From a virus, in IMG/VR virus record IMGVR_UViG_3300025810_000004, positions 94,947 through 158,946 of that record: a stretch of DNA of 64,000 bases; one strand, given 5' to 3'. The notes beneath the pieces were generated by a model. It did not search any database, was not told the DNA's origin, and saw only the letters and a program-made list of their open reading frames with translations. Shown here in pieces: positions 25,171-64,000 of this stretch (positions within the stretch are counted from its first letter, which is position 1; each line of letters starts with the position of its first letter). Made by a program: the position numbers and the translations under genes.

Positions 25171-25177
25171 GAAAAAA

Positions 25178-25249
25178 TGGACCCGGTGGGAGTCGAACCC
25201 CTGACCCCCTGCGTGCAGGCAGGTGCTCTCCCAACTGAGCTACAGCCCC
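25178..25249 (-). tRNA. tRNA-Ala-like gene (TGC), structurally degenerate
   Basis: The 5' half is canonical tRNA-Ala (GGGGCTGTAGCTCAGTTGGG). However, the anticodon loop between CCTGC and GCAGG is only 6 nt (CTGCAC), the T-stem has two mismatches (AGGGG/CCCAC) and the acceptor has one. The expected loop CTTGCAC lacks one T. It is probably a decaying or pseudo-tRNA, unless this reflects a sequence error. Confidence 0.6.
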
Positions 25250-25577
25250 ATTATGTCGTCAAAGTTGGCACACTTTAACCGGTGTGCCAGCGGGTTTGTA
25301 AGCCACGTTTTGCAAGCTCTTGAACTTTAATTCCAGAACACGTTTTCCTACCTCTTGGCTCTTAGTTGGCTTGTTGTCACCAACTACAAGGCACACTTTA
25401 ACCGGTGTGCCAGCGGTATAGGTTTAGATTTTCACTTACGTTTCGGGCTTCGCCACGATGCGCTGGATGCCTTCTCAGACTTTAGCCTCCGATAACCTAA
25501 AACGGAGGTCGCACTCTTGTTCCGCCTTCTGCCGTGAGGCTCCAACGGGGGTGCAAAGTTATCAGATTTTCAATGAA
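25250..25577. repeat. non-coding stretch with a 27-bp direct repeat and hairpins
   Basis: No convincing gene in about 330 nt. A 27-bp exact repeat (25267-25293 and 25390-25416) has an internal dyad GGCACAC...GTGTGCC with an 8-nt loop. Between the copies, AGTTGG...CCAACT (25364-25385) forms a second hairpin. These structures lie directly upstream, in transcription order, of the leftward tRNA group, so they could be processing or termination signals. Confidence 0.55.
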
Positions 25578-47196: not shown

Positions 47197-47874
47197 CCAA
47201 CCTACAATCCCTCCACCCCACCAGTGGACTTTGCTGTTCATCTTGTCCCTGTATGCAACTCCAAAGAAGTGTTCGTTGTCGAACAGGGGACACGGGGGAC
47301 CCAAACTGCGCCAACCAATCCTTGGGTCCTTCTCGTACAGAAGTGGGGCGATTCGACGAGATATCGAGGTCAGACTCTCCCTGCTGTTTCGACCCATTGA
47401 GGAAGCGATGGGTTTGTAGATACCTGTGCTTTGCAATTCGAGGACTCTGATACCCCAAACCTTTTCGTTGTGGATCGAGTTTTCGCTCCCCGTGACGGAA
47501 GAGTGTTCCCTCCTCAGAACAAAGTTCTTGAGTATCCCAATCCTCAAACCTGAACGTTCAACCGCGTGGTAGGTAAGACCATGGCCTATGATTTCCTTGA
47601 CCATGTGTCGGAACTTCTTTCCGTCTATCTGCTCCTCGATATAATCGATGGTATTCGATTGTATCGAGGCTATCGAATTGAGAGGTCGTTCTTCTTTGTT
47701 TGGTGGCACATCTGACTCCCGTCCGTGGAAGATTGCTCGATAGTAGGGAAATACCAGTATTTTGGGGGGTACGATACCCCTCTCCGGGTAGAGAAGGGCA
47801 AATGGAATCAGGCCAGTATTCCAAGAGGTCCCGAAGCCCAAATACAAGTCAAGGCCCCTCCCGTGTTTCTGCAT
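47179..47874 (-). CDS. hypothetical protein with atypical composition
   Basis: 231 aa, not recognised. It has a Trp/Gly-rich C-terminus (VHWWGGGIVGWVSDID) and SLTSISRRIAPLLYEKDPRI. Base composition is more AT-rich than the neighbours. No ribosome site is visible before ATG 47874; instead a TCGGT-GAC-ACCGA dyad (47882-47894) lies there. It also contains a TCGAT-TGT-ATCGA dyad (47655-47667). It may be a recent insertion. Confidence 0.6.
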   Translation of the reverse strand: MQKHGRGLDLYLGFGTSWNTGLIPFALLYPERGIVPPKILVFPYYRAIFHGRESDVPPNKEERPLNSIASIQSNTIDYIEEQIDGKKFRHMVKEIIGHGLTYHAVERSGLRIGILKNFVLRREHSSVTGSENSIHNEKVWGIRVLELQSTGIYKPIASSMGRNSRESLTSISRRIAPLLYEKDPRIGWRSLGPPCPLFDNEHFFGVAYRDKMNSKVHWWGGGIVGWVSDID

Positions 47875-47881
47875 CGGTCGG

Positions 47882-47950
47882 TCGGTGACACCGAACCGAG
47901 CAGAACAGCAGGAGGGGCCAGTAGAGTGCTTCGGTTATCGATAATATCGA
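47882..47950. promoter_or_regulatory. two 13-bp 5-3-5 palindromes upstream of the 47874 gene
   Basis: TCGGT-GAC-ACCGA (47882-47894) and TCGAT-AAT-ATCGA (47938-47950), 43 nt apart, in the leader of the 47179-47874 gene. Both have the TC-purine-purine-T, 3-nt spacer, complementary arm design found also at 48175 and five times between 57554 and 58345. Candidate operators or small RNA hairpins. Confidence 0.6.
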
Positions 47951-48027: not shown

Positions 48028-48051
48028 GCGGGAGGGAGGATTCGAACCTCC
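48028..48051 (-). other. isolated tRNA T-arm-like sequence
   Basis: GGAGG-TTCGAAT-CCTCC is a perfect T-arm, followed by CTCCCGC as would suit an acceptor 3' strand. The matching 5' strand (GCGGGAG) is not found within a normal tRNA distance upstream, and no clear D or anticodon arm could be built. Probably a tRNA remnant or a highly divergent tRNA. Confidence 0.4.
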
Positions 48052-48174
48052 GAAAACCACCCCACAAGGGCCTTCGCCAGAGCAGAGTGGCGCAGCCACC
48101 ATGGCTGTCTTCGGTACGTCTGCCAACGCACCTTGCCTATCCCCTCGCCCAGTGGCAGCTGGACACACAGTCAC

Positions 48175-48187
48175 TCAGTATCACTGA
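48175..48187. promoter_or_regulatory. 13-bp palindrome TCAGT-ATC-ACTGA
   Basis: Member of the 5-3-5 palindrome family with a third arm version (TCAGT/ACTGA). It lies between two tRNA-like sequences in non-coding DNA. Confidence 0.5.
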
Positions 48188-48215
48188 GAACTGAAAGGGC
48201 TCCCGCGCAAAATTT

Positions 48216-48306
48216 GGTCTGTGGAGGGAGTCGAACCCACTTTATCCAACGTCGGAATCGAACCGACCTGCCAGCTGCCGCCGACTGCCATTCCAGGCTC
48301 ACAGAT
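48216..48306 (-). tRNA. tRNA-Ser-like sequence (anticodon CGA), aberrant
   Basis: Acceptor halves TCTGTG and CACAGA pair over 6 bp. GTCGG-TTCGATT-CCGAC gives an anticodon arm with CGA, and GTGGG-TTCGACT-CCCTC a T-arm with one mismatch. The D region is about 20 nt too long and could hold an insertion. Read as a damaged or unusual class II tRNA; the assignment is uncertain. Confidence 0.3.
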
Positions 48307-57553: not shown

Positions 57554-57839
57554 TCGATACCATCGAATAAAACTGACTTCACACACCCCGAAACCGCATT
57601 AACACCTGTTGGACTATATGCCCATATGTCTGTGAGGCCCATCAGACCGTCGCACCCCAAAAGAGCCAGCGATGCCAGATGTCCTCGGATTGCCTTCCGT
57701 GCGCTGTCAGTATTACTCGATATTATCGAAAGGTGGTTTTCTCCCACGAGGGGGTATTTCTCGGAGGTATACCCCCTTCTTTCAGCACCGCTGGATGACT
57801 CCCCGAATCGGTGACACCGACGATGTTCGGTGTTACCGA
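57554..57839. promoter_or_regulatory. four 13-bp 5-3-5 palindromes
   Basis: TCGAT-ACC-ATCGA (57554-57566), TCGAT-ATT-ATCGA (57717-57729), TCGGT-GAC-ACCGA (57808-57820) and TCGGT-GTT-ACCGA (57827-57839). The last contains the stop codon of the frameshifted ParB-like frame. The stretch 57551-57832 shows no convincing gene on either strand beyond a stop-free leftward frame (57544-57918), which is not clearly coding. Confidence 0.6.
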
Positions 57840-58260
57840 CGATCGACCCGGCGTCCGACGATTGCGGGGATGCTACGGGCGGAGCCAACCACCAACCCGG
57901 CAGACCTGTGCCACCCATCCCAGATGCCCTCTACAGCACCCTTAGAGTCTTCAATGACGACTATGGGGTCTATGGTCCCTTTTTTAGTTTCTCCATGTAT
58001 CCGGACCTTCCCAATTCTTCGTCGAATTCAACCTCTTGGGCGTACCACTTTTCCCAGCTACGCCGCCCTCCCGGCATAGCGCCAATCAGCTTCCGCTCTG
58101 GGTACGCAGGCTCATATCTCCAACGAAGTTTACGGGGGTCAACGTCAGGGTCATTGACCCCCGTAAACTTCGGCTTCGTCCCACATCCAACGATGCGGCA
58201 GATCGTCACCTCCCCAGATGCTCGGCCCCTTGACACCCTCGTTGGAATAGCGTTCGGCAA
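57833..58260 (-). CDS. ParB-N-like protein encoded across a -1 slippery site
   Basis: The leftward zero frame (58260 to stop at 57970) includes KLRWRYEPAYPERKLIGAMP and WEKWYAQEVEFDEELGRSGY, ending MEKLKKGP. At 57985-57979 it reads CTA AAA AAG, so the heptamer is A AAA AAG. A -1 shift continues GTIDPIVVIEDSKGAVEGIW, then DGWHRSAGLVVGSARSIPAI VG, to a stop at 57833. The DPIVV...DGWHR...IPAIVG pattern is the core of ParB-N/Srx-like domains, so the shifted frame is the meaningful one. A GGAG lies 5-6 nt upstream of the heptamer. Either programmed frameshifting or a homopolymer indel. The N-terminus is uncertain. Confidence 0.55.
58124..58172. repeat. 19-bp perfect inverted repeat, 11-nt loop
   Basis: CGAAGTTTACGGGGGTCAA (58124-58142) and its exact complement (58154-58172). 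It overlaps the stop codon of the 49-aa gene (58151) and the N-terminal part of the ParB-like frame. Very stable if transcribed. It could terminate the upstream gene, stimulate recoding, or be a scar of an inverted duplication. Confidence 0.75.
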
Positions 58261-58300
58261 CTCGTGCAGCTGAGGGTGGAAGTTCTGGTCTGTAAGGCAT
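58151..58300 (-). CDS. 49-aa hypothetical protein
   Basis: ATG 58300 with GGGAG 8 nt upstream. Product MPYRPELPPSAARVAERYSN, then EGVKGPSIWGGDDLPHRWMW; the stop lies in the loop of the 19-bp inverted repeat. Two 5-3-5 palindromes (58313-58325 and 58333-58345) lie immediately upstream. Confidence 0.55.
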   Translation of the reverse strand: MPYRPELPPSAARVAERYSNEGVKGPSIWGGDDLPHRWMWDEAEVYGGQ

Positions 58301-58312
58301 GTGTGTTCTCCC

Positions 58313-58345
58313 TCGATGCTATCGAGTTCTACTCGGTATCACCGA
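58313..58345. promoter_or_regulatory. paired 13-bp 5-3-5 palindromes before the 58300 gene
   Basis: TCGAT-GCT-ATCGA (58313-58325) and TCGGT-ATC-ACCGA (58333-58345), 7 nt apart, ending 13 nt before the ATG of the 49-aa gene and covering the end of the 58592 gene. Paired placement next to a start codon suggests an operator or a translational hairpin. Confidence 0.6.
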
Positions 58346-58633: not shown

Positions 58634-59113
58634 CTAAAGCAGAGGCCCCAACACACGAGCCACGCGGGAGAACCCCTCCTTCGCGGCGTCCGGGGGTCGC
58701 TCCGTGATGTAGCGGTGCATCTTGTCGATTGCCTCGTCCGGAACTCGACGGTCAGCGGGACGCGTAGCGTTGCGCTCCTTGCAGACGTGCTTCGGGGTGT
58801 CGAGCCAGACACACTCAACCGGACACCCGGTGTAGGCTGCCCACACCATACGGGAAACTCGTGCCCGCTTCCAATCCGTGTCGAAACAGGCGTCGAAGTA
58901 GAGCACACCGTGCTCCCGGTTCTGGCGCAACCAAGTGCTCTTGCCAGAACCGGGAGCACCCATGAGGATGACCACCTTCTTGGGCTCGGGACACCAGCGG
59001 AGGTAGTCCTCCAGGGCAGCCCACGTGCGCTGCCACGCGGCCTTTGCCCGGCGCGGGGTCCAGTGGTACCGACCCTGGAGGTCGTAGAGGTGATTGTCGG
59101 GAGAGAAGATCAT
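58634..59113 (-). CDS. P-loop kinase (polynucleotide kinase/zeta-like)
   Basis: 159 aa from ATG 59113 (GAGG 6 nt upstream). Walker A ILMGAPGSGKSTWLR (about 55-69), then LYFDACFDTDWKRARVSRMV and VECVWLDTPKHVCKERNATR, with the Arg-rich lid RNATRPADRRVPDEAI. This is the layout of small nucleotide or polynucleotide 5'-kinases. The preceding N-terminus RYHWTPRRAKAAWQRTWAAL is typical of phage members. Substrate not determined. Confidence 0.8.
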   Translation of the reverse strand: MIFSPDNHLYDLQGRYHWTPRRAKAAWQRTWAALEDYLRWCPEPKKVVILMGAPGSGKSTWLRQNREHGVLYFDACFDTDWKRARVSRMVWAAYTGCPVECVWLDTPKHVCKERNATRPADRRVPDEAIDKMHRYITERPPDAAKEGFSRVARVLGPLL

Positions 59114-62863: not shown

Positions 62864-63291
62864 CCGAGACCCGCGAGGACTTCGTCCAGCGCCTTGGCGC
62901 GCCAGGCCGGGACGATCTCGACGAGGTCGGCCGCCGTGACGGCGGCCGGGAACAAAAGGGCCGGGCTTTGCCCCGCCAGGACGGAGGAGTCGAGACCGTG
63001 GCGGATGCGGTAGACGCCGTCTCGCTGCCGGGGGAAGCCGTCGAGCGTCTCGACCTTGGCGACGACCCGGCCCTGCGGCGTCTGGAGCGTGGCCCACAGC
63101 CACACGGCCTCGGCCTCGGCCTGGGGCTCGTAGCCCCGGAAGTCGGCGAGGGCTTGGGCCGGGACCCAGACGCTGACGTCGCCGACGCCCTCGATCTCTT
63201 GGGTGACCTGAGCCTCTCCGCTCAGGTCGCTGTTGAAGTGGATGCGTCCGGCCTCGTTGCCGTCGGCGTCTCTCAGGATGTGGGTGTGCAT
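62860..63291 (-). CDS. hypothetical beta protein
   Basis: 143 aa from ATG 63291 (AAGGA 5 nt upstream). MHTHILRDADGNEAGRIHFN..., VVAKVETLDGFPRQRDGVYR. GC-rich codons like 24.1-24.9 kb, unlike the 48-61 kb genes. Unknown. Confidence 0.65.
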   Translation of the reverse strand: MHTHILRDADGNEAGRIHFNSDLSGEAQVTQEIEGVGDVSVWVPAQALADFRGYEPQAEAEAVWLWATLQTPQGRVVAKVETLDGFPRQRDGVYRIRHGLDSSVLAGQSPALLFPAAVTAADLVEIVPAWRAKALDEVLAGLG

Positions 63292-63500
63292 GGGGTCCTT
63301 GTTGCGGTGACGGTGTAGCGGGCAGGGTGCCCTGTGTTGGAGCGGGCTCGGACCACGCGAAAGCCGGCGGCCTCGAAGCCTTCGGCGATGGCGAGGGCTT
63401 CCTTGCGGTCGAGCCTCGGGAGGATGAAGCGGTTGGGGCGCGGGGCCTTGATGATCTTGATCGCCCGGTCTTGGACCAGCAGGCCAGCCGTAGGTTGGCG
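63273..63500 (-). pseudogene. gene fragment lacking an N-terminus
   Basis: Frame with IKIIKAPRPNRFILPRLDRK, then EALAIAEGFEAAGFRVVRAR ending at 63273. It reads as coding but has no start of its own and merges upstream into the HNH frame. Best explained as the remainder of a gene joined to the HNH fragment by deletion. Confidence 0.45.
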
Positions 63501-63667
63501 AACCTGTCGGTGCCCCCGTGGATCCGAGGGATGATGTGCTCGAAGGTGCTGATCTGAGACCCGCACCCAGGGTAGTACTCCGCTGCAGGTACCAGGTGGC
63601 ACCGACAGTAGAGACAGTGGGGGTCCGACGCAAGGAGCCGGGCCCGCTTACGTTGGGAGTTGTTCAC
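63470..63667 (-). pseudogene. HNH endonuclease fragment
   Basis: From GTG 63667: NNSQRKRARLLASDPHCLYC, then STFEHIIPRIHGGTDRFANL RLAC. First CxxC, the catalytic His (EHI) and the Asn of the ββα-metal motif are present, but the final CxxC/H segment is lost when the frame runs into unrelated sequence (WSKTGRSRS...). Probably an inactive, truncated homing-type nuclease. Confidence 0.6.
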
Positions 63668-63689
63668 AGCAAGGACCTGGACGCGGTCT

Positions 63690-64000
63690 TCACCATCGGT
63701 CCCCCATGTAGGCCGCCGCCGCCATCGCTCGCGCTCGCGACAAGGCGCTGCTCTCGCGCTGTTCGTCGTCTGCGGCCTGCGCGGCTGCGTCCATCTCGTC
63801 GCTGAACTGCTCAGCCATCGCAAGCGCAGCCTTACTCCCGAGGCTCACGTAGCCGTCGCCCTCAGCGTCCCCGTTGTCACCACCCTCGCCGGGGTGCTGA
63901 ACTTCGGCCAGCTTGCCCCGACCTCCACGGGCGACCTGCTTCTCCCAGCCCATTCCGGTTCGCACATGCGTCTTCGGAGCACCGGGCTTGTACTTCCGGG
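63690..64000 (-). CDS. partial hypothetical protein, runs off right edge
   Basis: Leftward frame open to the window end. The visible 103 residues include GYVSLGSKAALAMAEQFSDE, then MDAAAQAADDEQRESSALSR ARAMAAAAYMGDRW. An internal GTG (63965) is a possible start, but the frame continues upstream (RKYKPGAPKTH) past the edge. Ala-rich helical C-terminus. GC-rich. Confidence 0.6.
   Translation of the reverse strand, partial: RKYKPGAPKTHVRTGMGWEKQVARGGRGKLAEVQHPGEGGDNGDAEGDGYVSLGSKAALAMAEQFSDEMDAAAQAADDEQRESSALSRARAMAAAAYMGDRW

Follow-up and report, generated by a model that had tools for sequence, protein, structure and literature searches.

An in-phase A_AAA_AAG heptamer in a split phage ParB/sulfiredoxin-fold gene probably marks an ordinary frame break

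Does a phage gene whose two halves lie in different reading frames, meeting at a highly slippery A_AAA_AAG heptamer, make its product by programmed ribosomal frameshifting, or has it simply lost its frame? The question is raised by a ParB-like gene in the window (the whole 64,000-nucleotide (nt) stretch of DNA analysed here), which covers positions 94,947–158,946, the right end, of a virus record of 158,946 bases. Matches to terminase, portal and baseplate profiles indicate that the record belongs to a tailed phage. A first-pass annotation had described the gene as two frames meeting at an A-run, without giving the strand. The gene lies on the minus strand, and on re-reading of the minus-strand frames that description proved accurate: the two-frame arrangement at the A-run is real.

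Two frames of one ParB-like protein

The upstream frame, f2, taken as the zero frame by the first-pass annotation, runs on the minus strand over 57970–58260 and contributes 96 amino acids that, from the open reading frame (ORF), paired homologue matches and an HMM, correspond to the first half of a ParB/sulfiredoxin (ParB/Srx) domain. It is open from TTG at 58260 to TAG at 57970, and its tail reads ...ATG GAG AAA CTA AAA AAG GGA CCA TAG, confirming that CTA AAA AAG in the zero frame is followed by a stop three codons on. The heptamer A AAA AAG (57979–57985, minus strand) is in phase with f2 and, judged from the sequence and from the crossing seen with the closest homologue, is the place where the frames cross. 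The −1 frame, f1, stays open between 58030 and the TAA at 57833 and reads KKGTIDPIVVIEDSKGAVEGIWDGWHRSAGLVVGSARSIPAIVGRRVDRR. Past the crossing (57833–57984, minus strand), sequence, homologues and HMM assign to it the second half of the domain, and it does carry the DPIVVI...DGWHR...IPAIVG core ascribed to it, with the DGWHR codons at 57919–57905. From 58030, where its last upstream stop lies, to DGWHR, f1 contains no ATG, GTG or TTG; its first start codon, at 57895, lies past the motif. The joined reading has no additional nonsense codon, and the gene looks intact apart from its frame.

We searched for relatives with the joined protein and obtained eight plasmid records (best E 2e-6, Rhizobium); an alignment of the joined protein with these plasmid relatives was then used to find nine viral loci. 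Against an HMM of 11 homologues, the f2 piece scored 37.1 bits and the f1 piece 50.6 bits, and the joined protein reached 96.2 bits. In the reverse test, in which nine homologue proteins were compared with the record, five gave paired matches at E < 1e-5, each pair having one member in f2 and the other in f1. The strongest pair (E 1e-19) came from the homologue L025, a plain 144-amino-acid ORF that is 45% identical over 111 residues spanning the crossing and that places the frame switch between 57979 and 57976. Moreover, an IWDGWHR...IPAIVG core is common to the window protein and its homologues. Because the joined HMM score is far above those of the halves, and because homologue matches pair up across the two frames, with that to L025 changing frame at the crossing, we conclude from sequence comparison that the f2 and f1 halves encode one ParB-like protein with its junction at the A-run. 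The join proposed by the first-pass annotation is thereby borne out.

Overlapping genes are common in phages, and f2 and f1 do overlap. That they are two separate genes that merely look like one is nevertheless scarcely credible, given the lack of any ATG, GTG or TTG in the 3′ frame from 58030 to the motif and given that homologues encode the two halves as a single chain with a single fold.

No match was returned by tblastn of the joined protein against phages, by a viral scan with the single protein, by a near-DNA search of phages with window positions 52.4–64 kb, by use of an AAA gene as a search anchor or by a search of phages with L025; a search of phages with P0003 gave four weak, partial matches, which were left out of the analysis. 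A ParB relative was found in 0 of 14 related phage records, and a scan of genome contigs yielded 23 pattern matches, none of which was confirmed. Some relatives (L021:487–1821, L026, L027 and L031) have the same ParB/Srx domain embedded in far longer proteins or forming their end; the domain also occurs alone.

Assignment to the ParB/sulfiredoxin fold

Sequence profiles recognized the family weakly: Pfam ParB_N matched one of seven members (E 0.051) and PHROG ParB-like profiles matched two of seven (best E 0.002), with none for the window protein. The joined protein had no significant match in Pfam, PHROGs or PDB sequences. L025 was modelled, folded from unchanged homologues only (pLDDT 89, pTM 0.81). 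Compared with the PDB, this model retrieved sulfiredoxins and ParB/Noc/KorB proteins with moderate scores (best Foldseek E 8e-3; best Z 6.5, 2.8 Å over 78 residues), and in a viral structure library its best match was A0A1B2IE46, which has a ParB/sulfiredoxin domain and comes from Erwinia phage vB_EamM_Kwan (E 3.6e-5, TM 0.67/0.75). By way of the fold predicted for this homologue, ParB/sulfiredoxin-fold appears a fair name for the window protein. The likeness to the Kwan protein thus passes through the model of L025, and the window protein differs from ParB/Srx-fold phage proteins in having no significant Pfam or PHROG match. To judge by its size, it would have no DNA-binding helix–turn–helix part within its length. 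With it, the ParB/Srx-fold proteins of phages gain one frame-broken member.

The heptamer and programmed frameshifting

The first-pass annotation pointed to a −1 slip at A_AAA_AAG; as programmed frameshifting, this would set the amount of full-length ParB/Srx protein. Consistent with this idea, a slippery heptamer of the form X XXY YYZ (A AAA AAG, 57985–57979) stands at the frame crossing in the correct phase. The annotation had also equated it with the heptamer of bacterial dnaX, which holds for Escherichia coli dnaX, where the same A_AAA_AAG is likewise in phase, and the available text of PMC5009743 compares heptamers in E. coli and gives A_AAA_AAG as the one most prone to shift. In-phase copies are rare, at 1 per 44,001 codon positions in the other called genes of the record, and the missing start codon ahead of the motif in the 3′ half, together with the homology of both halves to one protein, also favours a shift. 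The only other in-phase A_AAA_AAG in a called gene is at L002:12274–12280 (plus strand), again as CTA AAA AAG; that gene runs on to its own stop and has no sign of a frame change.

The homologues, however, do not keep the arrangement. A single frame was found in seven of the nine viral loci, that is, in all seven that span the crossing (L028 and L029 end at contig ends), and in all five plasmid homologues fetched from the eight records matched, so the comparison that the first-pass annotation had suggested turned out negative. No in-phase slippery heptamer lies within 45 residues before the motif in any of 11 homologues, with the limit that the site-spanning relatives are at most 45% identical (tblastn), so that a very recent site could escape notice. 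The GGAG that had been placed 5–6 nt upstream is indeed present, 5 nt before the heptamer (57991–57994, minus strand), but the role of bacterial-type stimulator given to it is not supported: the available text of PMC5009743 describes Shine–Dalgarno spacings of 9–14 nt for −1 stimulation and of 3 nt for +1 shifts. Downstream of the heptamer, 117 nt show no structure above that of shuffled sequence (z +0.96; 168 of 200 shuffles were equally or more stable), whereas dnaX has both a Shine–Dalgarno stimulator and a 3′ stem–loop (PMC5009743, same text). In addition, f2 lacks a good start, and in the absence of a shift it would yield half a domain that lacks the conserved motif. Taken together, an unconserved arrangement, a misplaced GGAG, no downstream structure above shuffles and a poorly started f2 leave programmed frameshifting unsupported, and we consider it unlikely. 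Transcriptional slippage was dropped as a candidate; the run has six A, compared with the runs of nine A or T in the available text of PMC5009743.

Given that the relatives are unsplit, an ordinary one-base break, by mutation or by sequence error, is the most likely explanation rather than a programmed switch. We hold it highly probable that a phage ParB/sulfiredoxin-fold gene of about 150 codons lost its single frame when homopolymers changed in length by one base. The length change that is certain would be the one in the A-run (57985–57980). Where the phase is right, a one-base change in the length of that run would create the heptamer automatically, which makes the coincidence less telling than it looks; the in-phase A_AAA_AAG would be a by-product of that change and not a selected signal, and we infer that the change was accidental rather than selected. 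Ribosomes may still slip at the heptamer at some rate and so make a little of the full-length C-terminal half. Such leaky correction, with some full-length protein, is possible, and a break on so slippery a heptamer would offer a natural test of how much activity can be rescued by leaky ribosomes. More generally, the locus is a warning that a lone in-phase A_AAA_AAG should not be read as programmed frameshifting.

Gene start and a likely second break upstream

The start of the gene is probably ATG 58300. This ATG, preceded at 7 nt by a Shine–Dalgarno-like GGGAG (58308–58312, minus strand), is the only one with a Shine–Dalgarno sequence before it, and it is out of frame with f2; the f2 start candidates (TTG 58260, GTG 58236 and GTG 58209) have, by eye, no well-spaced Shine–Dalgarno sequence. 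It opens a 5′ stretch of f1 (58151–58300, minus strand) of 49 amino acids, MPYRPELPP...DEAEVYGGQ, that ends at TGA 58153–58151. If the gene starts here, a +1 change is needed before this TGA, most simply at a run of five G (G5; 58162–58158, minus strand). Both G5 and the TGA are held within a perfect inverted repeat (58124–58172) with 19-nt arms and an 11-nt spacer, worth about −37 kcal/mol as RNA, and its arms match perfectly through G5. The residues before G5 (DEAEVYG) resemble DEASAHEG and EYARVYG of relatives. In the HMM, support for the f1 N-terminus or for the upstream +1 join was not significant (the score was 97.1 bits when the f1 N-terminus was included, 96.5 with that of f2 and 96.2 with none; 40 of 500 shuffled N-termini did as well). 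A second break upstream is likely, and less certain than the one at the A-run; it would most simply be a length change at G5 within the inverted repeat.

The repeat itself suggests how such a change could arise. According to the available text of PMC7202029, quasipalindromes are mutation hotspots at which template switching makes the repeat more perfect, and a perfect repeat of which one arm has changed its run length, as proposed for the window gene, would fit this process. Template switching at a quasipalindrome would be a natural cause of the likely upstream break, a putative event by comparison with the mutations in that text. An exact search of viral contigs for the repeat arm found none.

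An Rfam match of the hairpin to a microRNA family, at 24.4 bits where the gathering score is 90, was taken as chance. Translational bypassing over a hairpin, as known from T4 gene 60, was dropped here, since the bypassed stretch, around DPRKLRWRYEP, would be one with homology to relatives. The two breaks could also be read as two recoding events in one gene, a +1 shift at G5 beside the hairpin followed by a −1 shift at A6. The good Shine–Dalgarno sequence on the f1 ATG fits this, as does the position of the f1 TGA, two codons past GGG GGT and inside the 19-bp stem. It would, however, require two opposite shifts, with no Shine–Dalgarno sequence 3 nt before the +1 site, unlike the bacterial +1 shifts in the available text of PMC5009743, and with an f1 N-terminus that has no significant homology; no homologue does this, and we regard it as extremely improbable.

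It is also doubtful that the phage truly has this A-run and that A_AAA_AAG keeps the full-length ParB/Srx protein at a fixed low amount, whether or not a second shift takes place at the hairpin. If the run lengths were real and the full protein were made, the gene would be an instance of recoding in a class of genes new to it, and an A_AAA_AAG-regulated ParB/Srx gene, if true, would be the first recoded member of its family in the material searched. The titles and abstract openings of literature on A_AAA_AAG frameshifting or on ParB-like phage frameshifts report no frameshift in a ParB/Srx phage gene.

Mutation in the phage DNA or error in the record

If the break is an ordinary one, it is about equally likely that the length change is present in the phage itself and that it exists in the assembled record alone. 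Relatives found via terminase (14 loci) allowed about 65.5 kb of the record to be checked, and in this part no real frame break was found. Comparison with the relatives gave ten frame-jump rows: six regions, when read, were gene junctions or antisense frames, and the remaining four were antisense, at the boundaries of called genes. General sequence error is thus not evident in the record, with the limit that the cover by relatives at 58–64 kb is nearly nil (0 to 13% per 2 kb).

In the available text of PMC3711429, frame breaks that are unclustered and validated by BLASTp are expected to be mostly sequencing errors. The window gene resembles the GeneTack class of indel-broken genes and sequencing errors described there in being a singleton, validated by homology and without a conserved site; it differs from that class in that its break falls on a heptamer itself able to slip.

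A second gene at the same contig end is likely to be broken as well. An HNH endonuclease gene (63250–63820, minus strand; Pfam PF01844, E 4e-7), 5.5 kb from the ParB-like gene, has an apparent frame change near 63493, where the codon scores of one frame collapse and those of another rise. Similarity to Rhizobium phages, though weak, runs across this point (E 6e-3), and the gene has neither a start codon for the downstream frame nor a slippery site near 63493. Two broken genes near a contig end would fit either an error local to this part of the record or an accessory region in decay. A simple frame-break scan of both strands listed 61 candidates, with the ParB-like gene third, after two that are antisense to called genes; five other regions of this list, inspected by eye, held no clear broken gene. 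A Viterbi gene model that allows frameshifts flagged, for the most part, ordinary overlaps between genes and did not pick up the ParB-like gene.

Repeats, palindromes and tRNA-like sequences

Other repeats lie close to the gene. A second perfect inverted repeat, with 17-nt arms (58910–58959), is about 740 nt from that at 58124–58172; both are in coding sequence, and the second overlies the part of an intact kinase-like gene that encodes the P-loop. Perfect inverted repeats with arms of at least 13 nt number 13 in the record as a whole, compared with 1, 0 and 0 in three mononucleotide shuffles, and some of the 13 are probably terminators.

The palindrome TCGATNNNATCGA occurs six times in the whole record, in every case within 47636–47938 or 57554–58345, and four of the five copies of TCGGTRNYACCGA fall within the same two intervals. 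The clusters occupy two intergenic places that flank a minus-strand block at 48.4–57.6 kb, and both sides of the ParB-like gene; they are possible operators or partition sites. On the minus strand at 48030–48300, several TCGAACC-type stretches resemble the T-arms of tRNAs, with no tRNA there by ARAGORN or Rfam. A tRNA-like gene at 25177–25250 (minus strand) has a two-base anticodon by ARAGORN and is accepted as a tRNA by Rfam, at 39 bits.
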